Part shown: piece by piece, positions 743 through 44,654 of the stretch | How the letters are laid out: each line of letters starts with the position of its first letter | Position numbering within the stretch: the stretch's first letter is position 1 | Source of the DNA: a virus | IMG/VR virus record: IMGVR_UViG_3300021963_000220 | Coordinates: 1-44,654 of that record | Direction: 5' to 3' (one strand) | DNA: 44,654 bases | Translations under genes and position numbers: made by a program | The notes under the pieces: generated by a model | The model's database searches: none | Told to the model about the DNA's origin: nothing | The model's input: the letters and a program-made list of their open reading frames with translations, nothing else

Positions 743-1111
743 ATGAAAACATTTGTACAACACCTAGAAGAGCAAAAAGTAACTGGTTCAGAATGGACTT
801 TATTACAAGAATCTTTAACTTCTGAACTTACACCAGAATTAGAAGAAAAAATAGATAGAGCTATTGATGAATTTATGGCTCAATACACCAATGAAGATGG
901 TATCGTTGAAATCACAAGATTTAATGAAGACGTTACCAATGAAGGTTTCTTAGGTTCTATTTTAGGCGGTTTAACTGGCTTTGCATTAGGAACTACAGTT
1001 GGTAAAATAGTTGCTAAAGCTTTAGGTGTACAATCTGGTATTTTATACGATTTACTAACTTCTAGATTAGTTGGAGCCGCAGTAGGTTCTGCTCTTGGTA
1101 CTAGATTCTAA
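743..1111 (+). CDS. Small glycine-zipper membrane-type protein, possible virion cargo
   Basis: The 122-residue protein has two parts. Residues 1-66 are acidic and helical, beginning MKTFVQHLEEQK, which resembles the capsid-targeting N-termini of T4 internal proteins (MKTYQEFIAE in IPIII, from memory), with a possible cut at L-E-E. Residues 68-122 form two glycine-rich hydrophobic helices (GFLGSILGGLTGFALG and LVGAAVGSALG), a glycine-zipper pattern seen in pore or membrane-inserting proteins. TNE|G precedes the hydrophobic part and resembles other possible processing sites in this phage. A membrane-acting ejection protein is one reading. A holin is less likely, because the gene sits between tail and recombination genes. 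Function is not established. Confidence 0.5.
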   Translation: MKTFVQHLEEQKVTGSEWTLLQESLTSELTPELEEKIDRAIDEFMAQYTNEDGIVEITRFNEDVTNEGFLGSILGGLTGFALGTTVGKIVAKALGVQSGILYDLLTSRLVGAAVGSALGTRF

Positions 1112-6440: not shown

Positions 6441-8732
6441 ATGTCAGTACAAAAAATTTCATCATTTAAGTCCTTTACTGAGGTTAAAAACCAATCAAAG
6501 GCAGCTCAACTTCATGAAGAAGGTAAAGCCAAAAGAGCAGAAATAGTATCTAAAATTGGTGCAGCTCTTGAAGAAATGGGTGTTACTTCACTACAAGAAT
6601 TAGATGAAGAAAAAAGAAATGCCTTAGTTGCTAAAATCTTTAATGAAGATGAAGCAGAAGAAATTGAAAAAGATATTGTTAAATTAGGTGAACCTAAAAA
6701 AGAAGATCCTAAAAAAGGCGAAGAATTAACAAACGAAGCTATTATCAATGAAGGGACAAGATCTCAAATTGGTAAAATTGACAAGTCAGGTAAAATTGTA
6801 TCAACTTATGTACATTATGATGGTTATCCAGAGAATATGGTGCCATTATTGAAAAATTACAAAGACACTAAATCAGTAGATCAATTATTAAAATTAGGTA
6901 AAGCGGGTATTTCATACTTAGATGCAAAGATTGGTGATAAACCATTGGATTTCAATAATCCAGAAAAAGGCATTACTTTATTCTACGGAAGAGATAGAAA
7001 TGAAAAAGGTGACATGACCACTAAAGCAGACGTTAAAAACGTAGCTAAGTATTTAAAAGGTGTTGCAAACCAATCAGGTGCAGAATATGCTTATTTATAC
7101 GATGAAAGAGACGGTAAATGGTACATGGCTGACACATATGAAGATAAAGAATTAAAACCAGTTGCAGAATCTTTGTTAACTGAAGGTAATGCTTTTGGCG
7201 CTGCAGTTACTAAAGCTAAAGAAGCTGGAGAAAAAGAATTTGAATTTGACGGTAAAACTTACAAAGTTAAAGAAGATAACGCATCTGAATTTGATGTAAT
7301 TGATGATGTATTCGAAGCAAACTATAATGTTTCTAGATCAGCTATCGGTAGAATGGGCGGTTTAGTACCAATCAAAGAAATGAAAGCTTTGATAGATTGT
7401 TCTAAAGCAGTCATCGAAGATCTATACGAAGAAGGCTTTGAATTAGACGAAATTATCGGCTACATCGCTTACAGAATCAATGATAAATTTGAAGGCGTGT
7501 ATGAATCAGCATTAACTGAAGGTTCACACGGAATGGCTACTAAATTGCTTCAAGCTATTGTAGACGGAGATTCTTCTAGTGCAGAAGGTATTAAAATGTC
7601 AAAAGAATTAGCACAACATTATATTGATTGGATTAGAACTTCACCTTACGGTAAAAAGAATGCAAACTTGCCATTAGCAATGTTGGTTAAAGCATCTCAC
7701 AACTGGGGTATTGAAAGAGGTTTGGATTCAAAATTAAAAACTGAATTAAAAGGTTTAAAAGAATCTACTGAATCAATCGAAAGCGATGGCGTAAACGAAG
7801 CTAGATCAATTAATAAAATCCAGACAGAATGGACTAAAGTTACTAATGCAATGAAAGACACTGCAGCTAGTTGGAAAGCAGCTGAAGGTGATGCAAAAAC
7901 TGCATTATTAACAACTTTAAAAGAAATGACAGCAAAAAAGAAAGCTTTAGAAGCTGAATTAGATGCAGTTGTTTCAGATAAAGACAAAGACTTAGAATTA
8001 GCAATGGAATCAATGACTTTAGTTTTACGATCAGTTGACGAAGGCTTTGAAGTTCATTATTCTGATGGCGTTAGAGCTATGAAGAAATTCGGTAATGAAA
8101 AACAAGCAATCGATTTTGCTAAAGATCTAATCAAAAACAAAAAAAGTTTACAATTCGTAGATGTTTTTAATGCAGGATCAGGATTTCACTCAACATCTGA
8201 TACAAATGCCATCGTAGCATTTTGGGGAGATGGTTCTTATACAGACAATGTTTCTAAGAGAGATACTAAATTAGCTGCTAAAAAAATTCAAGAATCTGTA
8301 GAAATTAACGAAGAAGACATCACGTCAGATGATCAATTTAAAGAATATGCGATGACAGTTTTAAAAGATGCATTCAAAGATGAATTCGATGAAGCTAAAG
8401 CAGAAGATGTTATCAAAGGAATTCTTAGTAAAGTTGATGGTGATTACGGCGCAGCTATCGGAATGCTAACAAGTTCTTTAGGAGAATCAGTTACAAATGA
8501 AGCTACTGTTGAAGTAGATGCTACAGACCCTAAAGATAAAAACTTAGCTAAATTATTAAAGAAACACAATGTTACTTTAGAAGTAATTAACAAAAAGGGA
8601 CCATCGGGTTATCCAGAAGTTAAATTAACCGGAGATACCAAAGATCTCAAAGCAGTTTTAGCAGATGATGAATATGGCTGGGACGATGAAGATCTTGCAG
8701 ATTATATTGAAGAATCAAACACTGAAAACTAA
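6441..8732 (+). CDS. Large modular internal protein with multiple prohead-protease-type sites
   Basis: The 763-residue acidic protein appears built of separate modules. T4-type prohead proteases cut at (I/L)xE before A, G or S. Such sites occur at INE|G (after residue 104), LTE|G (248) and LTE|G (360), with weaker VNE|A (453), VDE|G (534) and TNE|A (687). The module after 104 carries STYVHYDGYPENMV, which I recognise as a motif of an uncharacterised family common in phages. Residues 454-525 look like a coiled coil (KKKALEAELDAVVSDKDKDL). Residues 535-605 are a beta-rich unit with FEVHYSDGVRAMKKFG. The N-terminus MSVQKISSFKSFTEVK may be a divergent capsid-targeting peptide. I infer a packaged polyprotein cut during head maturation. 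No enzyme activity is visible. Confidence 0.6.
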   Translation: MSVQKISSFKSFTEVKNQSKAAQLHEEGKAKRAEIVSKIGAALEEMGVTSLQELDEEKRNALVAKIFNEDEAEEIEKDIVKLGEPKKEDPKKGEELTNEAIINEGTRSQIGKIDKSGKIVSTYVHYDGYPENMVPLLKNYKDTKSVDQLLKLGKAGISYLDAKIGDKPLDFNNPEKGITLFYGRDRNEKGDMTTKADVKNVAKYLKGVANQSGAEYAYLYDERDGKWYMADTYEDKELKPVAESLLTEGNAFGAAVTKAKEAGEKEFEFDGKTYKVKEDNASEFDVIDDVFEANYNVSRSAIGRMGGLVPIKEMKALIDCSKAVIEDLYEEGFELDEIIGYIAYRINDKFEGVYESALTEGSHGMATKLLQAIVDGDSSSAEGIKMSKELAQHYIDWIRTSPYGKKNANLPLAMLVKASHNWGIERGLDSKLKTELKGLKESTESIESDGVNEARSINKIQTEWTKVTNAMKDTAASWKAAEGDAKTALLTTLKEMTAKKKALEAELDAVVSDKDKDLELAMESMTLVLRSVDEGFEVHYSDGVRAMKKFGNEKQAIDFAKDLIKNKKSLQFVDVFNAGSGFHSTSDTNAIVAFWGDGSYTDNVSKRDTKLAAKKIQESVEINEEDITSDDQFKEYAMTVLKDAFKDEFDEAKAEDVIKGILSKVDGDYGAAIGMLTSSLGESVTNEATVEVDATDPKDKNLAKLLKKHNVTLEVINKKGPSGYPEVKLTGDTKDLKAVLADDEYGWDDEDLADYIEESNTEN

Positions 8733-8749
8733 AATATCTATAAAATTAA

Positions 8750-8776
8750 AAAGACCCAATTAATCTTGGGTCTTTT
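8750..8776 (+). terminator. Rho-independent terminator
   Basis: AAAGACCCAA (8750-8759) pairs with TTGGGTCTTT (8766-8775) around a six-base loop, with flanking A and T runs. It lies between the 763-residue protein gene and the ligase-like gene. The symmetry would allow function in both directions. Confidence 0.8.
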
Positions 8777-8790
8777 ATATTTCTCCTAAT

Positions 8791-10071
8791 ATGAAAACAC
8801 TTTTAAACTATACAGAGTTCCTTATTGAAAAATGGAATCAACAATATCCAGACATTATCTTAGAAGGCGGAGCAGCAGGACACATGATGCACCCATTTGA
8901 TGATGAAACTCTTACATTTGGTGAAATCAAACACATTATTGATGGTGCTTTAGAAGGTCGTTTAGATTTCGAAGCGGCTCCTACTGAAAAAACAGACGGA
9001 CAAAATGTCTTTGTTACAGTTAAGAATGGTCAAGCAATGTTCGCTAGAAATAAAGGACAGATGAAACAACCAATAGATCTTAATGGAATCACACAGATGT
9101 TTCAGGATCATCCATCAACTGGCGTTAGAGATACATTTACGTTCGCTGCACAAGATTTGGCCAGTGCGCTGCAATCACTATCCGCAAAGGACCAACAAGA
9201 ATTTAATGATGGAACTTCATTTATGAATATGGAATTAATTTACTCTGGTAATTCAAATGTAATCGCTTATGGTAAAGATGTTATTCAATTTCATGGTATG
9301 GTTCACACCGATGGAGAAGGTAACCAAACAGGCTCAGACTCTAAATTAGCTGGTAAAATAACAAACGCACTAAAATCAGTTAATTCACACGTACAAAAAA
9401 CATTTGAAATCATTCCACCTCAGGAATTACAAATAGGTAAATCAATTGACTTTGAAGAAAAGAAAGGTTATTTCTTAAATAAGGTTAATGTTTTACAAAA
9501 AAGATATAACTTACAAGACACAGATCCAGTTTCTAAATATCACGCGATGTGGTGGAAAGAACTTATAGATAAAGACTTTTCAAAATTAGATGAAATTGAT
9601 AAAGCAGGCTTAGTACAAAGATGGGCATTCAATGACAAGAAAACTTTAAATATTAGAGATCTTGCAAAGAAAATGGATCCAACAGAATATAAAGCATTTC
9701 AAAAATTTGATAAAGAAGACTCAGTTAAAAAATTTAAAGAAAACATTTTACCATTTGAAAACTTATTCTTAGAATTAGGTTCAGTGGTGTTAAAGAATGT
9801 TTCTAATCTTTTAGTTGCTAATCCAGCTCAAGAAATGCAAAGACTACATACACAAATTAAAACAGAGGCCGATAAAATCAAACAAAACGGAGATTTAACT
9901 CAATTAGCTAAAGTAGAAAAAGAATTAGCTAGATTAGATTCTATCGGCGGTATTGATTCTATCGTACCTTCAGAAGGCTTAGTTTTTCAATATAAAGGTA
10001 AATTATTTAAGCTTACTGGAACATTTGCTGCCATTAATCAGCTTATGGGTATTATAAAATACGGAAGATAA
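8791..10071 (+). CDS. Ligase-like nucleotidyltransferase with capsid-targeting-like N-terminus
   Basis: The 426-residue protein has motifs of the covalent nucleotidyltransferase (DNA/RNA ligase) superfamily. Motif I is EKTDGQN with candidate nucleophile Lys67. MFARNKGQ follows about 15 residues later, NMELIYSG resembles motif III, and SEGLVFQYKGKLFKLTG near the end fits motifs IV and V. The N-terminus MKTLLNYTEFLIEKW resembles a capsid-targeting peptide and is followed by a clean prohead-protease site, ILE|G after residue 25. This suggests it is packaged and injected. Residues 28-36 (AAGHMMHPF) resemble a segment I recall from cyanophage proteins of unknown function. Substrate (RNA or DNA) is unknown. 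It is followed by a second ligase-like gene with its own promoter. Confidence 0.6.
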   Translation: MKTLLNYTEFLIEKWNQQYPDIILEGGAAGHMMHPFDDETLTFGEIKHIIDGALEGRLDFEAAPTEKTDGQNVFVTVKNGQAMFARNKGQMKQPIDLNGITQMFQDHPSTGVRDTFTFAAQDLASALQSLSAKDQQEFNDGTSFMNMELIYSGNSNVIAYGKDVIQFHGMVHTDGEGNQTGSDSKLAGKITNALKSVNSHVQKTFEIIPPQELQIGKSIDFEEKKGYFLNKVNVLQKRYNLQDTDPVSKYHAMWWKELIDKDFSKLDEIDKAGLVQRWAFNDKKTLNIRDLAKKMDPTEYKAFQKFDKEDSVKKFKENILPFENLFLELGSVVLKNVSNLLVANPAQEMQRLHTQIKTEADKIKQNGDLTQLAKVEKELARLDSIGGIDSIVPSEGLVFQYKGKLFKLTGTFAAINQLMGIIKYGR

Positions 10072-10093
10072 ATAAAATAAATCTATAAATATT

Positions 10094-10123
10094 TTCATAT
10101 ATCAAATAGATTTAGTATATTTG
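10094..10123 (+). promoter_or_regulatory. Bacteroidota-type promoter for the ligase-NMNAT gene
   Basis: TATATTTG (10116-10123) matches the TAnnTTTG -7 box exactly, with TTC (one base off TTG) 19 bases upstream at 10094-10096. The ATG is 19 bases downstream behind an A-rich leader. It is the best host-type promoter in the window. Confidence 0.6.
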
Positions 10124-10142
10124 TAAAACAAAAATAAGAAAA

Positions 10143-12023
10143 ATGGCATTACAAAAATTAAGAGATTTTTATCAAGGTACGAATCCCAATACATTTAACG
10201 ACATGTTAAAGTCAAGAGTTGTTGTAACTGAAAAGATTGCAGGAGCTTCATTTCATGTTAGAAGAGCAATGGAAGGTTTTGAGTATTTCAAATCTGGAAA
10301 TAACGAAGCTATGAATATCATAGATAGAACGTTAACTTCAGTATATGAAAATGCAATTAAACACTTTCAAAGTTTAACATTAAACGAGAAAAATCAAATG
10401 CCAAGTGATTGGAAGTTTGGATTTGAATATTTACCAGAAGCTAATATGTCTTCTATTGAATATGATTCAACGCCTTTCAATTTTATGATATTAACGCACA
10501 TTCAAGTTTTAGGAACTAATGGCAAAGCTAAAAAGGTTTTAACAGATCCTAAGGTTCTAAAAGAATGGGCACAAAAACTACAAGTACAAGGACCATCAAT
10601 CATTTTTGATGGCATGTTAAATGAGGATCAAAAGAGAAATTTAGTGACATTACTTTCAATGTCAAACGAATCATACGCTAAAAGATTTGGAAATGAAGCG
10701 TTCACCAACCACATTTACAAATTATTTAATCCAGGAGCTTATAAAACCATTTTAAATGAAGATTTAATCAAACCGATTGATGGTTTAATAGTCTCTTTCG
10801 TAGATTCAACACAAATTAAAAGTTTTAAATTAGAAGAGTTTAAACCAGCTAATGAAGCTGAAACTTCCAACAGAGAAGCAAGTCACATGTATCAAATTAC
10901 AATGGTTGATTTGCTAGAATTCTTTTCAACAGTAGACCTAGATAGTATTGAGCTTTTAGAAACAGCTTCAGATAAAAGATATATTGAGTTGATTTCAGCA
11001 ATGTACAATTCGTATGTTAAAGAAAATGCTACTAAATATGTAGGAGTTGATTTTGGAGCAGCTGATTTTTCTAAATCTGCATTATTCAATATCAATACAA
11101 AATACATTGACAACGAAAAGACATTAGAATATTTAGACAATCCAGTTTTAGCTGAACTTTATAAAATCATGCTAAGCTCTTTTTCTAAAAAGAAAATAAA
11201 AGAATCTGCATTGTTAAATTCAAATATCTTAGAACAATTAAATCAGATTATTGATGTAATTGAACAAAAAGTATTTGTAGAAAACGCAGATGAAAATGCA
11301 ATTCACAACTTCAATAATTTCTTAATGCACAATAAGATTTCTGCTAGTAAAACTAACATGAACGAAGCATTAAAAATTAATTATTCAGAACAAGGTAAAG
11401 AAAAAGTAAACATGTTTGTTGGTAGATTCCAACCATTTACTCTTGGACATGCTAAAGTTTTAGAAACAATCCACAAACAAAATGGTTATCCAGTCGTAGT
11501 ATTTTTGGTTAAAGCTGCAAAGGCTCAAAAAGACGATGCCGTTAAAAGACCGTTTGATACAGAAACACAAATTCAAATGTTTATGCAAGTGCAAAAGCAA
11601 TATCCTTTCTTAAAAGAGATTTTTGTAATTCCATCAGCTGGTATCGATTTGATGTTTAATGAAATGAGACCTAAATATGAACCAGTTTTATGGGGAACAG
11701 GCACAGATCGTTTCAAAACTTATGGCTATCAAGTAAACAATGACAAATATAGAGATGAACTTGGTGTTTTACCAGAGTTTGGTTTATATGAGATCAAAAG
11801 AGACGATGAAGATATTTCAGCAACTAAAGTTAGAGAAGCTTTATTAGCTAATGATAAAAAGACTTTTGATAAAATGACACCTAAAGCGTTAGGTCCTTTA
11901 TTTAATGAACTTAAACAAAAGTTAGAAACTTCATTAAAAATTTCAGAAGCTATTGAAACAGAAGCAAGTACGGATGTATTAACTTTTGAACAATTTAAAT
12001 TAAATACTAATATTATTAAATAA
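10143..12023 (+). CDS. RNA ligase fused to an NMN-adenylyltransferase-like domain
   Basis: This 626-residue protein has two enzyme domains. The N-terminal part reads as an RNA ligase: motif I EKIAGASF with nucleophile Lys31, FGFEYLPEAN (motif III-type), PIDGLIVSF (motif IV) and IKSFKLEEF (motif V). From residue 424 a Rossmann-type nucleotidyltransferase begins with FVGRFQPFTLGHAKVL, the GRFQPxxxGH signature of NadM/NadR-like NMN adenylyltransferases. It ends near ISATKVREAL, matching their ISxTxxR motif. The middle third (about 240-410) is helical and unassigned. The end, LTFEQFKLN, recalls the FEQF of the cargo N-termini. A host-type promoter lies upstream. Roles in RNA repair, NAD synthesis or both are possible. 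I know of no such fusion in T4. Confidence 0.72.
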   Translation: MALQKLRDFYQGTNPNTFNDMLKSRVVVTEKIAGASFHVRRAMEGFEYFKSGNNEAMNIIDRTLTSVYENAIKHFQSLTLNEKNQMPSDWKFGFEYLPEANMSSIEYDSTPFNFMILTHIQVLGTNGKAKKVLTDPKVLKEWAQKLQVQGPSIIFDGMLNEDQKRNLVTLLSMSNESYAKRFGNEAFTNHIYKLFNPGAYKTILNEDLIKPIDGLIVSFVDSTQIKSFKLEEFKPANEAETSNREASHMYQITMVDLLEFFSTVDLDSIELLETASDKRYIELISAMYNSYVKENATKYVGVDFGAADFSKSALFNINTKYIDNEKTLEYLDNPVLAELYKIMLSSFSKKKIKESALLNSNILEQLNQIIDVIEQKVFVENADENAIHNFNNFLMHNKISASKTNMNEALKINYSEQGKEKVNMFVGRFQPFTLGHAKVLETIHKQNGYPVVVFLVKAAKAQKDDAVKRPFDTETQIQMFMQVQKQYPFLKEIFVIPSAGIDLMFNEMRPKYEPVLWGTGTDRFKTYGYQVNNDKYRDELGVLPEFGLYEIKRDDEDISATKVREALLANDKKTFDKMTPKALGPLFNELKQKLETSLKISEAIETEASTDVLTFEQFKLNTNIIK

Positions 12024-12028
12024 TAAAA

Positions 12029-13165
12029 ATGGCACAAACGCACGGAGACATTAGAGCAAAATTTGCTAGTCAATTAAATAAAAACGAAATGTTTAGAGCA
12101 ATAGATGAAGCTGCAAATGATTCACTAAATGGAGAAGTAAATGCTCCAGGTTCTCAGCATCGTAACATGGTTTTAATCGATCAAATCAAAAAGAATGGTA
12201 AAATTCAAGATTATATAAATTTTGCATCTTTGTACCCTAATGGACAAGCATCTGCAGCACTTATTAATTTTATAGCTAGTTTAAATCCAAAAGATTCAAT
12301 TGAATTAGCAAACAGTTTAGCTTCTTTAAAATCTCCAAGTGAATTAACGATTTCGATGTATTCAAATAAAGGTAGTGTATTAGGTAGATTATTCGATTGT
12401 ATTCCTTCGAGAGGTTTAGGTCGTGGAGAACCATTAATCGCATGGATGATTAAAGGTGCTGAAATCCAAGGTGGTAGTGAAAGCTTTGACGTTAAAATCG
12501 GTAAAGATAGATACGAAGTTAAAGATTATTCAGGACAAGGAAATGCAGCTATTTTAGCAGGTGTTCGTTCTAAAGTAAGTAACTTTGAATTCTGGAAAGA
12601 ATTAGTAGATACTCTAAGAAGACTTGATAAACTAACAGGGTTTTCAACACGTTCTAAATTTGATGTATCTTTATATTTTACACCAGAGTTAGTATCGTCT
12701 ATTAATGCTTTATTAAATAGACAACATGTTATTTTATCAGGAGAATGTAATCTTTCTGATTTAGCTAATTTTAGAAATTTTTATCAACAAGCTAGTCAAA
12801 TTCAAAATTTCATGCACGGCTACACTAATGTTATTTTAAGAGGTCCAAATGTAAAACCAATTGAATTAAGCATTGATTTATTAGATCCATCTGATGTTTC
12901 TGGAGATACAATCACATTCCATATTGCTAAAGCAGATCAAACAGATACTTATGTTTTATCAGAATTAAAGCGTTTAAAATACGTTAGAAATCCAAAGGAC
13001 TTAGATAATGATATGCAAAAAGCAGTTGATCAAATCCATGCAGGTTTAACATATATCGTATTTAGAAAGGATGCTATTAATGTAACAACTGATTTTGTTC
13101 CAACTGCAATTTCAATTTCAAGTTTAAAATTTGTTGAAAGAAGCATTAAAAATCCAACAGAATAA
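12029..13165 (+). CDS. Putative PD-(D/E)XK nuclease-like protein
   Basis: This 378-residue protein starts five bases after the ligase-NMNAT gene. Its centre has the spacing of a restriction-endonuclease-like fold: GRGEPLIAW (Glu134), then SFDVKIGKDRYEVKDY with Asp154, Glu163 and Lys165, a D-x8-ExK core. The N-terminal 110 residues are helical. The C-terminal half includes a beta-rich part (VILRGPNVKPIELSIDLL). Such folds also occur in non-cutting proteins, so activity is not certain. Its place directly after two ligase-like genes suggests a cut-and-rejoin partnership or host-genome attack, but this is inference. No capsid-targeting-like N-terminus is seen. Confidence 0.5.
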   Translation: MAQTHGDIRAKFASQLNKNEMFRAIDEAANDSLNGEVNAPGSQHRNMVLIDQIKKNGKIQDYINFASLYPNGQASAALINFIASLNPKDSIELANSLASLKSPSELTISMYSNKGSVLGRLFDCIPSRGLGRGEPLIAWMIKGAEIQGGSESFDVKIGKDRYEVKDYSGQGNAAILAGVRSKVSNFEFWKELVDTLRRLDKLTGFSTRSKFDVSLYFTPELVSSINALLNRQHVILSGECNLSDLANFRNFYQQASQIQNFMHGYTNVILRGPNVKPIELSIDLLDPSDVSGDTITFHIAKADQTDTYVLSELKRLKYVRNPKDLDNDMQKAVDQIHAGLTYIVFRKDAINVTTDFVPTAISISSLKFVERSIKNPTE

Positions 13166-13205
13166 TATTATCTTAATATATAGATAAAGAAAAATAATAA
13201 AAACT

Positions 13206-15455
13206 ATGAATTTTCAAAACTTTCTTAACGAGAAATATAGCAAAGATGACATCAATACAGCGTATGGCTTCTTTGGTACTATGGAAGATGCACATAATGA
13301 AAAAATAGCATACGAAATATTTGATGCAGCTGTTAAAGACTTGATGAAAGAATTTGGTCTTAAAGATGTTGAAGCTGTAGCTTTATTAAATAGCAAAGCA
13401 GGTAGACAAGCAGCTGATGCAATTATTGCAGGAGAATGTGAAGATAGTGTTGTTGCAGGAATGTATTGGTACTTTGGCAAAAACAACAAATCAAAAATTG
13501 TTAGTGCTGCTAAAAGTGCAATTAGTGAATCTAATGAATTAGATGAAGCTTCTAAATTTGGAGCTCCAGCTGGTTTAACTAAAGCTCAAACTAAAAAGGT
13601 TGCAGAAACTTTAGCTAAAGCAATGTCAAAGGCTGATAATGCTAAAGTGACAGTTAATCTTAGAACATTAGAAGAAGATTCATTTGATTTAGATTATGAT
13701 GGTGAAGAATATGACGGTGGTTCATATAATATTTACGATGACGGTTCTGTCGTTAATCATGCAGTAACACCTAATGAAATTTATGGAACTTCTGATTCTT
13801 CAGTTGAAGATTTTATTAAAGGTTTAAAAAAGCCTATTAAAGAATCATTCTTAGATGCTTATGATGAAAATTCAGAAGAATTAGATGAATCATATTCAAA
13901 TGATTTTGCATCTTGGTTTACAGGTACTTCATTAAATGATGTTAAACATCCAAAATATGGAAATCACAAAGTAACGCCAGATCAAATTAAAAATGCGCCG
14001 GCTGATTACAAAAATAAACTTTTTAAAGCTATAGAAAAGGCAATTAAATCAGGTGATATTACAAATGACATGATTAAAGCCAATGAATCTTTAGAGATTA
14101 GCGAATCTAAAATTACTTTAAAAAGAAGATATACAGAAAGTTATCCAGCTAAAACAACTGGAAAATATGCTGCTGTTAGAAATAAAATCATCGAAGCTTT
14201 AAAAGACGGTGAATTAACTAAAGAAGAATTTGACACTTTAGTTTCTGGTTTAACAGAAGATTCTAAAAGATGGTTAAGAAGAAATTCAACCTTCTTTAAT
14301 ATACAAGAAGATAAAGTTGGTTTAACAAAATCTGGTCAAAAAATAGCAGCTGCTCTTTTTCAAGCGGAAGATGTTAATAGCAACTTAAAAACAAACGAAA
14401 ATAACAATACAAATATGAAAACTAAATTCATTTATGAATCATTTTCTGAATTCGTTAATTCAATTGATGAGTCTTTTGAATTAGTTTCAGAATCATTTAA
14501 ATCATCTATGTTAGCTGGTTTATTTACAAGACAAGGTACATTCGATGCTAGTTTAGCAAAAGCTTTTTATGGAGCTACTAAATTAAAATTAGATCAAATC
14601 GAAGATGAAGATTTAATTAGTACAACACCAGCTTTAGCATATAAAAACAAATTAGAAAGTTCTATCGTTTTTTATATCTCTGATGTAGAAAAACCAAATA
14701 CTTATGCACCAGCAGACACTTACTATGCAAGTAAAACTATTCCAGGTGAAGGCTATTTATTAGCCGTAGCTTCAGGAGATAATAAATTCTATGACAATGT
14801 TTGGACTGGTGGAAGATGGGACAGAAATGCTAAAAATAGAACATTAAAACAAGTTGATAACAATCCAAGCGATTCAATCGGTATTAATAAAAAATACAGC
14901 GGATGGGAAGCAACAGGACTCTACAATGTTAAAAGAATTTCAGAAGTAGCTGATAGAGCAATCGTAATCAATACAACTTTATTAAGACAAAAATATTCAG
15001 CAGAAGCTCAAAGAGCAGATAGAGCTGCAGCTAAAAAAGGTGCAATTGCATTTAAATCAGATAAAGATTTTAAAGCTGAAAACATGGCAAGATATAATCA
15101 AATCATTGCTCAGAAAGCCACTCAAATGCCAATGGACAGTTTAGTTTCAAAAGCAATCGAAAGAATGTCTGAACAAATCAAAGACGGTTTAGCTAAACAA
15201 ACTAAAGGGCGTTATGGCGAAATTATCGTAGGTACAAATGCAAAAGGCGCTGAAGCTAAATTAGCAGATGTTGCTAATCACATGCAACGTATCTTAGATG
15301 ATTATTCTGGATATGTTCGTGTTGTTGCACAGCAAGAAGATTCAGTTGCTAAATATGGAGAAGCAGAGTCTTGGTATAAAAGAGAAGTTGAACAAAAAGC
15401 AAAAGAACTTAAAGATAGACTTGATAAAATAGAATCATTCTCTTATATCTGGTAA
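13206..15455 (+). CDS. Large internal polyprotein-like protein with repeated protease sites
   Basis: The 749-residue protein begins MNFQNFLNEKYS, resembling a capsid-targeting peptide with LNE at residues 7-9. The first 423 residues hold many consensus prohead-protease sites: ISE|S (after 108), LDE|A (114), IKE|S (213), LDE|S (228), ISE|S (300), IYE|S (411) and IDE|S (422). None is evident in residues 423-749. Met404 opens a second capsid-targeting-like peptide (MKTKFIYESFSEFVNS), so the gene looks like two cargo genes fused. The last 320 residues contain SSIVFYISDV, YYASKTIPGEGYLL and a long C-terminal helix. No catalytic motif was recognised. I infer packaging and cleavage into several peptides plus a roughly 327-residue C-terminal protein. 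Confidence 0.6.
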   Translation: MNFQNFLNEKYSKDDINTAYGFFGTMEDAHNEKIAYEIFDAAVKDLMKEFGLKDVEAVALLNSKAGRQAADAIIAGECEDSVVAGMYWYFGKNNKSKIVSAAKSAISESNELDEASKFGAPAGLTKAQTKKVAETLAKAMSKADNAKVTVNLRTLEEDSFDLDYDGEEYDGGSYNIYDDGSVVNHAVTPNEIYGTSDSSVEDFIKGLKKPIKESFLDAYDENSEELDESYSNDFASWFTGTSLNDVKHPKYGNHKVTPDQIKNAPADYKNKLFKAIEKAIKSGDITNDMIKANESLEISESKITLKRRYTESYPAKTTGKYAAVRNKIIEALKDGELTKEEFDTLVSGLTEDSKRWLRRNSTFFNIQEDKVGLTKSGQKIAAALFQAEDVNSNLKTNENNNTNMKTKFIYESFSEFVNSIDESFELVSESFKSSMLAGLFTRQGTFDASLAKAFYGATKLKLDQIEDEDLISTTPALAYKNKLESSIVFYISDVEKPNTYAPADTYYASKTIPGEGYLLAVASGDNKFYDNVWTGGRWDRNAKNRTLKQVDNNPSDSIGINKKYSGWEATGLYNVKRISEVADRAIVINTTLLRQKYSAEAQRADRAAAKKGAIAFKSDKDFKAENMARYNQIIAQKATQMPMDSLVSKAIERMSEQIKDGLAKQTKGRYGEIIVGTNAKGAEAKLADVANHMQRILDDYSGYVRVVAQQEDSVAKYGEAESWYKREVEQKAKELKDRLDKIESFSYIW

Positions 15456-15485
15456 TAAACAAAGAACAAAATAGACAAGTATAAA

Positions 15486-16004
15486 ATGAAACACATTCAA
15501 TTATTCGAACAATTTATTAACGAAGCTAGAGCTGAAGTTAAATTAGGTAGAGTGACACCTAAAAACATAGATGAAAAGGCACAACAAGTGTTAGAAGTTT
15601 TACAAGACGCGGTTGGTAAAACTATCAACGGAGAAGAACTTAAAAAAATGGTTGGTAGAAACTGGGGAGGTCCAGGTGCAAGTAAAGGTCTTAAAAATGC
15701 TAAAATTGAAATTATTGCAGTTCACGTAGGACATAACAATAGCTATATTTCTATGCAATTTATATATAAGACTGATTCAGATTTATTCGATAACCACGCC
15801 GAAGGTAATCAAAAATTAAAAGATCTTGAAGGTTGGGCCAAAGTAGCAGACGGTATGCGTTCTATGAAAGCAATTGACGGTAGTAATAAAGAATATAAAA
15901 GCGATGCATCGCACCAAGTCAAAGAACTTGTATTTAATAGTTTAAGTCCTAAAAACTTAGAAAATGCATTATCTATTTTAAAATTAGGTGATATTATCCT
16001 ATAA
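15486..16004 (+). CDS. Putative packaged internal protein with capsid-targeting peptide
   Basis: The 172-residue protein begins MKHIQLFEQFINEARAEV. This closely matches the style of T4 internal-protein targeting peptides and carries a consensus cut site, INE|A, after residue 13. The same N-terminus, with small changes, starts the gene at 29205 (MKHIKLFEQFIDES). The mature part is mixed alpha/beta (KIEIIAVHVGHNNSYISMQFIY) with no recognised active site. I infer targeting to the head core, cleavage by the protease encoded at 43258, and injection with the DNA. The gene starts 30 bases after the large polyprotein-like gene. Confidence 0.65.
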   Translation: MKHIQLFEQFINEARAEVKLGRVTPKNIDEKAQQVLEVLQDAVGKTINGEELKKMVGRNWGGPGASKGLKNAKIEIIAVHVGHNNSYISMQFIYKTDSDLFDNHAEGNQKLKDLEGWAKVADGMRSMKAIDGSNKEYKSDASHQVKELVFNSLSPKNLENALSILKLGDIIL

Positions 16005-16018
16005 AATAAAACACAAAC

Positions 16019-16465
16019 ATGCCAGCAAAATCAAAAGCACAACAAAGATTAATGGGACTAGCTTATTCAGTTAAGCAGGGTTACATGGATATTGCTCAAG
16101 TCGGTGCAGAGTATAAAGATAAAGTTAAAGAACTTGTTAATTCAATGAGTATCGAACAACTTAAAGATTATGCTACTACGCCACATGAAGGTTTACCAGA
16201 CACTGTAGAATCAGACTCAAACGAATCTATGGGTTTTGCAACTGGTTCGAGCGGACCGCAATCTATTGGAATGCCAGGTATGGGTATGGGCAAAATAGCT
16301 TTGCCAGATTTAGGCACAGGTGCTGTTGGTTCTGGAGATAAACCATCCGGTAGAGGTGATGCCGATGATGAATACGAAAAAGAAAAGAAGAAGAAAAAGA
16401 AACGCGAGAAAAAGCTAGCGAAATCATACGAATCTTTTATTTTCGAAAAGTATGGAAAGCTTTAA
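16019..16465 (+). CDS. Small protein with MPAKSKAQQR N-terminus and lysine-rich tail
   Basis: The 148-residue protein begins MPAKSKAQQRLMGLAY, a start I recognise from small conserved phage and bacterial proteins of unknown function. A glycine/methionine-rich flexible middle (IGMPGMGMGKIALPDLG) follows, then a strongly charged segment ending in a run of lysines (about 121-136). The last residues, SYESFIFEKYGKL, resemble the FEQFIxE targeting peptides but lie at the C-terminus. It closes the cargo block and is followed by a strong terminator. A DNA-binding or packaged role is possible; nothing firmer can be said. Confidence 0.55.
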   Translation: MPAKSKAQQRLMGLAYSVKQGYMDIAQVGAEYKDKVKELVNSMSIEQLKDYATTPHEGLPDTVESDSNESMGFATGSSGPQSIGMPGMGMGKIALPDLGTGAVGSGDKPSGRGDADDEYEKEKKKKKKREKKLAKSYESFIFEKYGKL

Positions 16466-16773: not shown

Positions 16774-16905
16774 TTAACGACCTTGTCCTCTATACTTTTT
16801 CTTGTAGTTTTTAGAGTGCTTGTTGTTAGATTGTTTCTTTGATGCTTTACCAGATTTTTTAGTCTTTTGAAAAGCGCCACCGTTTGGAGAAGAAGCTTTA
16901 GCCAT
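16774..16905 (-). CDS. Small basic GQGR-ending protein (only minus-strand gene)
   Basis: Read on the minus strand, this is a 43-residue, very basic protein, MAKASSPNGGAFQKTKKS at the start and NYKKKYRGQGR at the end. It is shorter than the usual gene-calling cutoff but well supported. It has a clean ATG, convergent placement against a perfect bidirectional terminator, and a composition unlike a chance frame. From memory, small basic proteins ending in (S)KNYKKxYxGQGR are widespread in Bacteroidota genomes with no assigned role, which would tie this phage to that host group. RNA or ribosome association is a guess based only on charge. No clear minus-strand promoter was found. Confidence 0.7.
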   Translation of the reverse strand: MAKASSPNGGAFQKTKKSGKASKKQSNNKHSKNYKKKYRGQGR

Positions 16906-29204: not shown

Positions 29205-29633
29205 ATGAAACACATTAAACTATTTGAACAATTTATTGATGAATCCAACGACATGTCTCTTCAATCCGCAGCTGGAAATGGAAGATCAATTGGAAGATAT
29301 AATGGACCTACTGGTGCTTCTGCAGAATGGAAAGATAACCAAACTGTTATTTCAAATAAATCAGAGTATTCTACTGAAATTCTAACAAATGCTGCATCGG
29401 CATTAAGAGATCTTGGTATTCAAGTAAAAGAAAAATCAATACAAGATGGTATATTAACAACTGAATTCGGAGGCTCAACGTGGACGTATCAATTTAAAAG
29501 TGGTAAATGGACTGCTACCGTTACAGATTCTAACGGTACTGCAGAAGCCCCAAAAGACATTTATGAATTTATCAGATTTATGGTCGCGCGAAAATATATA
29601 AAATTTAAAGATAAATTAGTAGGACGTAAATAA
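29205..29633 (+). CDS. Putative packaged internal protein between the polymerase halves
   Basis: The ATG at 29205 is chosen. The frame stays open to a TTG at 29181, but that lies inside the promoter box. The 142-residue protein begins MKHIKLFEQFIDES, nearly the same targeting-type N-terminus as the gene at 15486, with a consensus cut IDE|S after residue 13. The rest is mixed alpha/beta (GILTTEFGGSTWTYQFKSGKW). It has its own promoter and terminator, so it forms an independent unit within the nrd-clamp segment. I infer a head-packaged, injected protein. Its mature function is unknown. Confidence 0.65.
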   Translation: MKHIKLFEQFIDESNDMSLQSAAGNGRSIGRYNGPTGASAEWKDNQTVISNKSEYSTEILTNAASALRDLGIQVKEKSIQDGILTTEFGGSTWTYQFKSGKWTATVTDSNGTAEAPKDIYEFIRFMVARKYIKFKDKLVGRK

Positions 29634-41171: not shown

Positions 41172-42794
41172 ATGGCAGGATTCGTAGACAGAAACGGACC
41201 GTTTAGTACAGGTAAAAGACCTTTTAGGTTGAGCGATACTCTTAAGAAGTTATCGTCGTTCGGTATGTATTATGACGACTTAGTATTAAGACAATCACAA
41301 GCGATCGGTCCAATGGAAGATCAATTTGGTTACGGCCAAATGAACTTAATGGGCGTAGATTCAGATGACATTTATGGTGCATTTGCTGCACTATCTATGG
41401 CAGATACTAACATGAGAAAGAACCTTCCGTTCTTTGACATGAATTATAAATCTAAAAGAGATGAATTAAGACAATTTTCTCTTTATGATGAAATCGAAGA
41501 CATTTTAGATATTCTTTGTGATGAATCTATTGTATTTGATGAGAAAAATTTCGTAGCAACACCAACCTTAATTGGTATGGAAGTTTCTGAAGAAGTTACA
41601 TCATACATGCATAAATCATTTAGAAATATCTACCAATATTTTGGATTTGCAGGAGATCAATCTGCATGGTTTTACTTTAGAAAATGGTTAATTGATGGTT
41701 ATTTGTCATTTGAGATTGTTTATAATCCAGAAATGACAGAAATTATTGGTTTCAAAGAAATTGATCCAACAACATTAGTTCCAGGTTACAATAAAGAAGA
41801 TGGTAAAAAGGTTTGGGTTCAGTTTAAAGATGATCCAATTAAAGAGCGTAAATTATATGATGCGCAAATTATTTACATCTCATACTCTTCTATTACTACA
41901 GCTTCACGTATCTCTTACGTAGAACGATTAATTAGAGCATTTAACTTATTAAGAGTTATGGAACATACCAGAGTTATTTGGGCTGTTACAAATGCTTCAT
42001 ATAGAATGAAATTTATTATCCCAGTTGGTGGTAAATCTAAAACAAGAGCAAAACAATCATTAGCTCAATTGATGAATAACTATAAAGAAGTAGTTGATTT
42101 TGATTGGGATTCAGGCGTTCTTAATACTAATGGTAAACCGATGCTTCAATTTAATAAAGAATATTGGTTACCTTCAAAAGACGGTGAACAACCAGAAATT
42201 GAAACTTTAGGTGGTGAAGGTCCTGAAATTAATGATGTTGAGTCTTTAAAATACTTCTCAGATAAATTAAAGCACGTTTCTAAGATCCCATATAGTAGAT
42301 TTATGTACGAAGATGGCGGTGGAGAAAACAACATGGCAGCTGACGGTATGATCAGAGATGAGATTAAGTTTGCTAAATTCGTTAACCGTCTAAGATCTTC
42401 ATTCCAAGAAATTTTAGTTAAGCCTTTATGGTTGCAAATGTGTATTAAATTCCCTGAATTCAAAGAGGATCCAATGTTTAGAACACAAATCGCATTAAGA
42501 TATAACGAAGAAAACATGTTTGCTGAAATGAAAAACATGGAAATTATGGAAAAACGTCTAGACTTTATTGGCAATATGCGTAATAACTTGATGACAACGA
42601 ATCCATTAACAATGGAAGAAGAACATTATTTCGATTTAGATTTCTTAGTAGATAAATACTTAAAGCTAAATAATGACGATAAAACAGCCAATGAAGCTGC
42701 TAAAGCAAGAACAGAAGCCAGAAAAGCTGCAGAACCAGAAGATCCAAACGCAATGGCTATGATGGGCGGAGTGCCAGGTGCTGGCGGATTCTAA
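41172..42794 (+). CDS. gp20: Portal vertex protein gp20
   Basis: The 540-residue protein (T4 gp20: 524) forms the dodecameric ring through which DNA enters and leaves. Family marks include FSLYDEIEDILDILCDESIVFD near residue 100, GYLSFEIVYNPEMTEIIGFKEI near 180, IIYISYSSI, VESLKYFSDKLKHVSKIPYSRF and the strongly conserved ADGMIRDEIKFAKFVNRLRS near 393. The C-terminus is flexible and glycine/methionine-rich (MAMMGGVPGAGGF). It precedes the core protein and protease genes as in T4 (20-67-68-21-22). Confidence 0.95.
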   Translation: MAGFVDRNGPFSTGKRPFRLSDTLKKLSSFGMYYDDLVLRQSQAIGPMEDQFGYGQMNLMGVDSDDIYGAFAALSMADTNMRKNLPFFDMNYKSKRDELRQFSLYDEIEDILDILCDESIVFDEKNFVATPTLIGMEVSEEVTSYMHKSFRNIYQYFGFAGDQSAWFYFRKWLIDGYLSFEIVYNPEMTEIIGFKEIDPTTLVPGYNKEDGKKVWVQFKDDPIKERKLYDAQIIYISYSSITTASRISYVERLIRAFNLLRVMEHTRVIWAVTNASYRMKFIIPVGGKSKTRAKQSLAQLMNNYKEVVDFDWDSGVLNTNGKPMLQFNKEYWLPSKDGEQPEIETLGGEGPEINDVESLKYFSDKLKHVSKIPYSRFMYEDGGGENNMAADGMIRDEIKFAKFVNRLRSSFQEILVKPLWLQMCIKFPEFKEDPMFRTQIALRYNEENMFAEMKNMEIMEKRLDFIGNMRNNLMTTNPLTMEEEHYFDLDFLVDKYLKLNNDDKTANEAAKARTEARKAAEPEDPNAMAMMGGVPGAGGF

Positions 42795-42818: not shown

Positions 42819-43196
42819 ATGAAAAAATTAATTAAAACATTCGAACAATTTATATTTGAAGCTGAGGCCGTTAAGGCAGAAGATTCAGATGTTTATATCG
42901 ATGATGTATCGGCTGATGGTTCAGACACTGTAATTAAAGCTGTTGAAATTTTAGGAGCTATTAAGGCATCTGCAACAGAAAAAGAATTTAAAGACTATTT
43001 CTTTCAGCAATATGGCCAAACTACTTTAGCACCAGAAGATATGGCTAAACTTTGTAAATATTACAATGAATACAAAGAAGAAGAAAACAAAGAAAAGGCT
43101 GACTCTGAAAAAGAAGGTGAAGATGAAACTTCTACTGAAGAAGATCCATTAGCAGGTTTAGACACAGATTTACCAACAGGAGAAGACGGAAAATAA
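42819..43196 (+). CDS. Acidic prohead core protein (gp67/gp68-like position)
   Basis: The ATG at 42819 is preferred to the in-frame one at 42804 because it gives MKKLIKTFEQFIFEAEA, a capsid-targeting-type N-terminus with a consensus cut, IFE|A, after residue 14. The 125-residue protein ends in a very acidic tail (EEENKEKADSEKEGEDE). T4 places the small core proteins gp67 and gp68 at exactly this spot, between portal and protease. gp67 likewise has an acidic tail. It probably helps shape the scaffold core and is degraded or cut during maturation. Confidence 0.68.
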   Translation: MKKLIKTFEQFIFEAEAVKAEDSDVYIDDVSADGSDTVIKAVEILGAIKASATEKEFKDYFFQQYGQTTLAPEDMAKLCKYYNEYKEEENKEKADSEKEGEDETSTEEDPLAGLDTDLPTGEDGK

Positions 43197-43257: not shown

Positions 43258-44654
43258 ATGAATACAAATTCAAAACTTTTGATTCTTGAAAGAAGTGGTT
43301 CTACATTAGCATTCGCTCAAGATAATTCAGGCGCTTATGTTCTTGAAGGCGTGTTCGGTGAAATCGATAAGTTAAACAGAAACAATCGTATCTATACCGA
43401 AGACGAATATTTACCGCAAGTAGAAAGCCTTCAGGCTAAAATCAAATCATCTAAACTATTAGGTGAATTAGATCACCCACAAAACTTTGACATTTCTTTA
43501 AAAAATGTTTCTCACATTATTGAAGAATTAAGATATGACAAAGACAAGAAACAAATCCTTGGAAAAATTAGATTATTAGACACTGATGCTGGTAAACAAG
43601 CTAAAGCATTAGTTGACGCTGGTGTACCTTTACACATTTCTTCTAGAGCGGCTGGTACAGTAGAATCTAATGGAAAAGTTAAAATCAAACAATTATTTAC
43701 TTATGATTTAGTTGCAGATCCTGGATTTGCTAATGCTGAATTAAAAAGAGTTAATGAAGCTTTTGGTTTTGAAGATAATGAAGATCTTTTAATTTACGAA
43801 ATCAACCCAACTGATAATAAACAAACACAAATAAAAGAAGAACAAAACATGGAAAACGCAAGATTCGTTAGTACTGATGACTTCAATAGTTATTCAAAAT
43901 ACTTAGCTGAAGAAATCAAAGCTTTAAAAGAATCTCTTACAGCATTAACTAGCTCTGAGTCTACTAACGAAGAGATTAAAAATCTAAAAGAGTATTCTTC
44001 TTATATAGCTGAAAAATTAAACCAAGCAATTGCTTATTCTGAGCACGTTGCAGAAAAAGCTGATCAAGGAATTCAGTTCGCTGATTCATTAGCAGAAAAA
44101 TTAGACCAATCAATTCAATATTCTGAGCACATCGCAGAAGGTGTTGAAGCTATCAAAGGTTACACTAACTATTTAGCTGAGTCTTATAACGAAGGAGTTA
44201 TGACACACGAAAATGTAGTTAAATATGTAAACTATTTAAAAGAAAACTTAGAGAAAGTTACTGAATACGCAGAATACGTTGCAGAAACTGTAAACTCTAA
44301 CTTATTAATGGAAGATGATACTGATGCAGGTAAAGAATTAACTGAAGAGCCAAATGATAAAACTCCAGAGGTTATCGATGCAGAAGGTGAAAAATATCCA
44401 AAAGCAGAAGATGCAGCAGAAGATATCGAAGACGAATTAGAAAAAGATATCGAAGCTTCAAAAGCTGACGGTGAAGATACAGGTAAAGAAGTTACTGAAG
44501 AAGTAGAAACTGATGAAGAAGTTGCTGAAACTGAAGACAAAATGGATGCTTATAAGAAAGAAGTTACTGAGAAATTAGCTTCATTAGTTGAAAGCGCTAA
44601 AGCAAAATCAGTAGCAGAACCACATTTCTTTAAATTCATCGCTGAAGCTAAGAA
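43258..44654 (+). CDS. gp21: Prohead protease gp21 fused to a gp22-like scaffold (runs off the window)
   Basis: The frame is open from the ATG at 43258 to the window edge (465 codons). Residues ~30-165 are the T4 gp21-type serine protease (family S80/U9): GVFGEIDKLNRNNRIY, LLGELDHP with His73, DISLKNVSHIIEEL and VPLHISSRAAGTV with catalytic Ser128 or Ser129. A possible self-cleavage site, VNE|A (after 167), ends this part. An internal in-frame ATG (43849, Met198) behind an A-rich stretch opens the scaffold. About seven 14-residue coiled-coil repeats (residues ~250-347; e.g. LAEKLDQSIQYSEH) come first, then an acidic region, then FFKFIAEA with a cut site IAE|A. In T4 these are two genes. The protease presumably matures the cargo proteins. 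Confidence 0.85.
   Translation, partial: MNTNSKLLILERSGSTLAFAQDNSGAYVLEGVFGEIDKLNRNNRIYTEDEYLPQVESLQAKIKSSKLLGELDHPQNFDISLKNVSHIIEELRYDKDKKQILGKIRLLDTDAGKQAKALVDAGVPLHISSRAAGTVESNGKVKIKQLFTYDLVADPGFANAELKRVNEAFGFEDNEDLLIYEINPTDNKQTQIKEEQNMENARFVSTDDFNSYSKYLAEEIKALKESLTALTSSESTNEEIKNLKEYSSYIAEKLNQAIAYSEHVAEKADQGIQFADSLAEKLDQSIQYSEHIAEGVEAIKGYTNYLAESYNEGVMTHENVVKYVNYLKENLEKVTEYAEYVAETVNSNLLMEDDTDAGKELTEEPNDKTPEVIDAEGEKYPKAEDAAEDIEDELEKDIEASKADGEDTGKEVTEEVETDEEVAETEDKMDAYKKEVTEKLASLVESAKAKSVAEPHFFKFIAEAK

Follow-up and report, generated by a model that had tools for sequence, protein, structure and literature searches.

Seven neighbouring genes (p1–p7, positions 6,441–16,465; Table 1) of a 44,654-nucleotide virus fragment, IMG/VR record IMGVR_UViG_3300021963_000220 (hereafter the window, meaning the whole stretch analysed), probably belong to an expanded T4-type capsid-targeting system, in which a short peptide (the tag) marks head-packaged cargo and is followed by a prohead-protease cut; on the sequence evidence we give this reading a probability of roughly 80%. 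From the computed features (the tag, its Glu, the bias at the next residue, module junctions, scaffold repeats and cargo homologies) we infer scaffold docking, cutting, presence in the virion, injection and function, in the following steps. Proteins would be sent to the prohead core by a peptide of ~9–14 residues that closes with two aromatic residues and Glu ([FY]xx[FY][ILV]xE) and mimics a single repeat of the phage's scaffold, which is fused to the protease; the gp21-type protease would then cleave behind the tag Glu and release the cargo within the head. Two proteins, p1 and p5, would be diced at like cuts into several small head proteins, and p3 and p7 would dock by a C-terminal core. The mature proteins would probably be injected with the DNA to disarm defences and repair damage. 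Gene calls were made mechanically throughout.

Defined strictly as M-x(1-8)-[FY]xx[FY][ILVM]xE at the protein start, the tag opens five genes of the window against 0.08 expected from shuffled N-termini. An earlier note on this DNA had quoted peptides at these sites, all of which were recovered (MKTLLNYTEFLIE at 8,791, MNFQNFLNE at 13,206, MKHIQLFEQFINE at 15,486, MKHIKLFEQFIDE at 29,205 and MKKLIKTFEQFIFE at 42,819), and its claim that the same peptide opens the two genes outside the block (29,205 and 42,819) is borne out, both carrying the strict form. Sharing of the tag by the block genes holds for three of the seven at the N-terminus (p2, p5 and p6), whereas p1 has a variant, the core is C-terminal in p3 and p7, and p4 is untagged. 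The tag also extends well beyond the window, with 22, 24, 25, 16, 14 and 15 strict tags in six related genomes or large contigs (116 vs ~3.6 after shuffling). When the last residue of the tag was varied in these six genomes, Glu gave the 116 matches and any other residue far fewer. The 116 tagged bodies fall into 75 clusters without detectable similarity, mostly singletons, and an alignment of 66 cluster representatives leaves M1 and E13 alone invariant, with F10 nearly so. The closest relative, the 256-kb contig IMG/VR 3300012346_000380 (G001), whose compared proteins are 94–99% identical to those of the window, carries thirteen tagged genes in a near-continuous array at 193,196–200,292; more distantly related are three huge phages, LR756500 (462 kb), LR756504 (636 kb) and LR756501 (735 kb). 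With T4 as a control, the tag pattern recovers ipII and ipIII. A plain regular expression admitting the weak residues L, H and M produced many background matches in LR756500 and was set aside for the strict form.

Nucleotide searches used fixed-spacing patterns, a loose pattern without frame control being uninformative on huge genomes. The degenerate DNA pattern of the tag gave 62 matches across 11 relatives, almost always on the coding strand, against 0 for its reversed control. This 13-mer pattern matched 18 times in LR756500 and 6 times in LR756504, with no match in T4, PTm1, PAU, Lak-A1, LR756501, Mel-JY01, phiKZ, RaK2 or LR756508, and a 10-mer spacing pattern found ipII, ipIII and gene 61.1 in T4 and seven sites in LR756501, most of them ending INE. 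The tandem arrays are very alike over their first 39 bases, as would be expected if the shared 5' ends were a DNA element (promoter or ribosome site) or a recent duplication of gene starts. However, of the pairs of codons for identical tag residues, 26–48% differ synonymously, near the codon-usage expectation, so the tag is conserved as a peptide and not as a copied DNA element; as a peptide, the core is found at C-termini and within the scaffold too. Given the codon evidence we rejected the DNA-element explanation and regard it as scarcely credible. Similar starts were noticed in other lineages. The uncharacterised T4 protein gp61.1 (L238:967-1131) begins MKTFKEFIKE, close to the IPII/IPIII tag, and may be an overlooked internal protein. 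In Sphingomonas phage PAU, four head-region proteins among gp150–gp154 (L240:2414-5236) share the start MKT(L/I)xxL(F/Y)E, followed in two of them by AKLNE↓A (↓, predicted cut), and gp154 is annotated as an internal capsid protein; other lineages, as PAU, may have tags of their own.

The residue following the tag Glu points to proteolysis. Of the 116 tagged proteins, 61 have Ala, Gly or Ser there, compared with a background of 17% (p=7.6e-18); counting one member per cluster gives 45 of 75 (p=1e-16), other nearby positions reaching 9–17 of 75. Within the window, the pattern described in the earlier note, (I/L)xE with A/G/S straight after the tag, applies to the genes at 15,486, 29,205 and 42,819 and fails in p2 (E13) and p5 (E9), where Lys comes next. 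In p2 a second candidate site, ILE25↓GGAAGHM, lies downstream, and its Glu and the following GG are invariant across all aligned orthologues; the tag letters drift within the pattern and the linker varies in length, and xE↓GGAAGHM is kept. The AlphaFold model of p2 places a helix at residues 7–16, then a very low-confidence stretch at 18–31 that spans the cut and is probably disordered, and then a folded domain.

The matching protease that the earlier note placed at 43,258 is of the gp21-type S77 family by both PF03420 (3.6e-12) and phrog_207 (7e-43), and it lies close to the portal gene and, in G001, to a probable capsid gene. The G001 protease gene encodes 604 residues, with a long repetitive tail behind the S77 protease; next to it on the same strand comes a gene for a gp23-like capsid protein, assigned by position and N-terminal resemblance alone. 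Homologue tails hold 6–10 copies of [FYW]xx[FYH][ILV]xE compared with ~0.1 after shuffling, most commonly spaced 14 residues apart (38 non-redundant homologues), and the distant relatives LR756504, LR756501 and LR756500 have 12, 15 and 3 copies, respectively. The simplest explanation of the likeness of core and repeat is that the cargo tag would imitate a scaffold repeat, joining the core as an additional repeat and being cut likewise. In Tenacibaculum phage PTm1 ORF-300 (L228), protease and scaffold are fused too, and the repeat there is of another kind (ITESWIKYDFTKELSEGIEKWI type) that lacks the tag core.

Sequence marks p1 and p5 as modular polyproteins, with predicted prohead-protease cuts between the modules. 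Motifs of the form (I/L/V/M/F)xE↓(A/G/S) number 13 in p1 (4.6 when shuffled) and 9 in p5 (3.5 when shuffled). The best-supported predicted cuts inside p1 follow residues 104 (AIINE↓GTRSQ), 248 (LLTE↓GNAFGA), 453 (GVNE↓ARSINK), 534 (SVDE↓GFEVHY) and 687 (VTNE↓ATVEVD), with a further candidate after 360 (ALTE↓GSHGM), and the N-terminal F..F core of p1 is present in 40 of 41 homologues. The predicted cuts in p5 follow residues 114 (LDE↓ASKF), 228 (LDE↓SYSN), 300 (ISE↓SKITLKR), 422 (IDE↓SFELVSE) and 429 (VSE↓SFKSSML). Shuffling of segments is seen from relative to relative and between p1 and p5. Among the distinct instances of eight modules, 209 of 214 have (I/L/V/M/F)xE within ~12 residues upstream, where random windows of these proteins would give ~78. 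Other phages are known to have injected multidomain proteins (PMC5512222), and p1 and p5 might likewise remain whole as polyvalent-type proteins whose Glu sites are flexible linkers. We consider this improbable, since the linkers have the specific form (I/L/V)xE↓(A/G/S), in relatives the same modules directly follow an N-terminal tag or form tagged genes of their own, with the predicted cut in an identical position, and the independently defined family phrog_1987 matches p1 from residue 105, exactly at a predicted cut. The KITLKRRY module, for example, lies behind ISE↓S inside p5 of the window and directly behind an N-terminal tag in relatives (MNFEEFLNE↓SRITIKRQY), and the final module of p5 forms a tagged gene of its own in a relative (L055), where MKHIKLFEQFINE is followed by SDSSLNE↓AFAS. 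Pfam detected no peptidase and no typical polyvalent domain (embedded metallopeptidase, ADP-ribosyltransferase or ArdC-like) in p1 or p5.

Tags at the C-terminus are claimed for the p3 and p7 families alone, because C-terminal tags showed no enrichment genome-wide. Across 34 sequences, the p3 tail hardly varies at T614, F615 and F618, and the stretch before them is variable and poorly aligned. F..F tails close several p7 orthologues, including that of phage LR756500 (FIKTFNEFKTEYK). Upstream of p5, p4 had no match in the phage database and no Pfam family, and only three close relatives were found in viral contigs; the homologue in L031 is 46% identical and keeps D, E and K of the conserved D...ExK stretch, which hints weakly at a PD-(D/E)xK-type nuclease.

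The cargo appears to include enzymes, as the earlier note had supposed, and two of the window proteins, p2 and p3, are RNA-ligase-like by sequence motifs and fold comparison. For p3, fold search (Foldseek) returned T4 Rnl2 (3e-7) and PPAT (1e-6), and PF01467 matched at 7e-9, consistent with an RNA-ligase-2-like domain and an NMNAT-like one; in the ligase half, conservation of the motif I glycine is lacking and Gln replaces the motif I lysine in one orthologue, and this half may be inactive in some phages. For p2, the motifs K67xDG and EGLVF are invariant among orthologues and fold search gave weak matches, nearly all RNA or DNA ligases at the top (best E 0.018); comparison of its profile with PDB sequences gave chance-level matches alone, and a sequence-profile comparison of p2 with p3 found no relation. 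Tagged homologues in the relatives G001 and G002 include, above Pfam cut-offs, the anti-Thoeris protein Tad3 (PF25185, 8e-19) and an Acb1-like 2H enzyme (anti-CBASS, PF23474, 1.7e-7) with two HxT motifs that its G001 homologue shares; the gene for this homologue and that for Tad3 both sit within the G001 array. Other tagged genes in relatives encode AAA/zeta-like kinase, GNAT, DUF2201 metallopeptidase/VWA, leucine-rich-repeat, ATP-grasp and PNK3P phosphatase proteins. These homologies fit a counter-defence and repair kit better than the generic takeover kit that the earlier note had also suggested. The array itself (G001:193196-200292, L185-L186), with its Tad3, Acb1-like, GNAT and kinase homologues, is a candidate counter-defence island. 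LR756500 has several tagged leucine-rich-repeat proteins (L003:13446-14279, L006, L007 and L009), unusual for predicted head cargo. Two tagged proteins of the relative G005 have ADP-ribosyltransferase-like starts, FYHAT and VVYHFTS (L216:6969-7364 and L216:8300-9265), the former with a sub-threshold KptA match (E 0.023).

Table 1 Features of the window (a fragment of an uncultured T4-type phage, 44,654 bases, with head genes at the right end and tail and replication genes at the left).
Feature	Position	Strand	Remarks
122-residue protein	743..1111	+	conserved across the lineage; tag-like start MKTFVQHLEE, weak candidate
p1, 763 residues, predicted modular polyprotein	6441..8732	+	N-terminal F..F tag variant SSFKSFTE, without cut
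p2, 426 residues, nucleic-acid-ligase-like	8791..10071	+	N-terminal tag MKTLLNYTEFLIE; motifs EKTDG, EGLVF, YKLTG
p2 capsid-targeting peptide and linker	8791..8865	+	residues 1-25, predicted to be removed
p3, 626 residues	10143..12023	+	T4 RNA ligase 2-like and NMNAT/PPAT-like nucleotidyltransferase domains; C-terminal tag
p3 C-terminal tag	11982..12020	+	TFEQFKLNTNIIK, core TFEQFI; cut motifs KISE↓A and ETE↓A just upstream
p4, 378 residues	12029..13165	+	no tag; conserved D...ExK stretch (YDVxI...YEVKD)
p5, 749 residues, predicted modular polyprotein	13206..15455	+	N-terminal tag MNFQNFLNE
p6, 172 residues	15486..16004	+	tag MKHIQLFEQFINE then A; uncharacterised body
p7, 148 residues, DUF3008 protein	16019..16465	+	PF11450 3.8e-10; C-terminal core SYESFIFEKYGKL (SYESFIFE)
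Small separate tagged gene	29205..29633	+	MKHIKLFEQFIDE then SNDM
Portal protein (phrog_213)	41172..42794	+	context gene
Tagged small protein between portal and protease	42819..43196 (ORF also 42804/42819)	+	MKKLIKTFEQFIFE then AEAV; T4 gp67/gp68 position
gp21-type S77 prohead protease fused to repeat-bearing scaffold	43258..44652	+	gene cut off by contig end
Scaffold repeats	43891..44286	+	YSKYLAE, YSSYIAE, YSEHVAE, FADSLAE, YSEHIAE, YTNYLAE, YVNYLKE, YAEYVAE
Further scaffold repeat	44626-44646	+	FFKFIAE, tag core

Genes for tail tube, SSB, primase and a UvsW-like helicase occupy the left end of the window. The only short minus-strand candidate gene near the block (16774-16905) encodes 43 Lys-rich residues (MAKASSPNGG...KKKYRGQGR).

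Head targeting and prohead-protease cutting, as proposed in the earlier note, are strongly backed by the tag statistics, the A/G/S enrichment, conservation among orthologues, the module junctions and the scaffold repeats, and we infer strongly that the cargo is packaged into the head. Several observations weigh on the other side. Scaffold mimicry is a resemblance of sequences, and T4 gp22 has no scaffold repeats, nor do PAU gp152 and PTm1 ORF300; because the repeats are absent there, the mimicry claim is not extended to these three proteins. The counts for modules and scaffolds include sequences related by descent and do not represent independent events. About 40% of tag families lack A/G/S at the next position, where cutting may be inefficient or may take place at a second site. 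Furthermore, p4 has no tag and the LR756500 p3 lacks the C-terminal core. Our wider proposal is that large and huge T4-type phages, as a broad group, bring cargo into the head by scaffold-repeat mimicry, with one core serving as scaffold repeat, N- or C-terminal tag and protease site, polyprotein cargo diced in the prohead and the full injected arsenal readable from sequence; we hold this to be only slightly better than an even bet.

The tag might alternatively be an assembly motif of the head core, borne by ordinary structural or core proteins that build or fill the prohead and not by injected effectors, as could be argued from the core shared by the gene in the gp67 position (42,819) and the protease-scaffold and from the conservation of p1, p5 and the 122-residue protein across the lineage. 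We judge this unlikely, though deserving of attention, since the 75 unrelated bodies, most of them lineage-specific and placed in tandem arrays beside Tad3, Acb1-like, GNAT and kinase homologues, have the look of variable accessory cargo, and the internal proteins of T4, which bear a tag of this kind, act as injected inhibitors (PMC12373910, PMC3012670). Direction to a membrane, the replication compartment or the tail, with Glu and protease coincidental, would suit a short, amphipathic-looking tag on many bodies without known function, but the Glu is fixed, the A/G/S enrichment is confined to the next residue, the core is repeated in the protease-fused scaffold, modules are flanked by cuts and the pattern recovers T4 ipII and ipIII, which leaves this explanation very improbable.

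Among known systems, the expanded targeting system proposed here is closest to that of T4, whose internal proteins are diverse defence inhibitors behind a conserved capsid-targeting sequence (PMC3012670), Ip1-3 each inhibiting different GmrSD enzymes (PMC12373910). T4 IPI, IPII and IPIII likewise combine a short N-terminal Y/F..F[IL].E peptide (MKTYQEFIAE in T4), an S77 protease and varied small counter-defence cargo, and the window lineage was found to have a shared short peptide on unrelated proteins, (I/L)xE followed by a small residue and an S77 protease near portal and capsid genes. It differs in having ~14–25 strict tags per genome or large contig vs a handful in T4, tags of 9–14 residues with a lineage-specific consensus, and C-terminal tags, predicted polyproteins and a protease-scaffold fusion with tag-like repeats, which T4 gp22 does not have. 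The polyvalent proteins (Iyer et al. 2017, PMC5512222) and phage P1 DarA/DdrB resemble p1 and p5 in having several domains per chain, predicted delivery with the DNA, head processing and a role in conflict, whereas p1 and p5 consist of small novel modules predicted to be released in trans by the head protease at repeated motifs. The ejection proteins of phiKZ and SPN3US, whose propeptides are cut by the giant-phage prohead protease (PMC5694885, PMC10052503), are similar in their many head-internal proteins, N-terminal propeptides and S77-family protease, but several of those propeptides exceed 100 residues, in contrast to the one shared short tag of the window lineage. Both systems appear to be related ideas, one tested defining feature of each being absent here. 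A literature search, incomplete in coverage, found no earlier report of such tags or polyproteins in the lineage. Relative to T4, the scale, the C-terminal tags, the polyproteins and the protease-scaffold fusion with tag-like repeats appear new, and the tag, protease and logic appear shared.

T4 tags a few restriction inhibitors, and the window lineage would scale this logic to about two dozen unrelated proteins per phage. Compared with the known forms of Tad3 and Acb1, a head-targeting tag on their homologues implies delivery at injection, beyond synthesis after infection, and homologues of Thoeris and CBASS inhibitors would be of greatest use if they were there from time zero. A connection of tag with scaffold repeat would give this targeting signal, which has long been known, a concrete and testable means of docking; the predicted polyproteins suggest a way of loading several head proteins from one gene. 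Because the tag is recognisable in raw sequence, the injected effectors of uncultured large phages may be listed by motif search, and tagged proteins without known domains become candidate new anti-defence genes.

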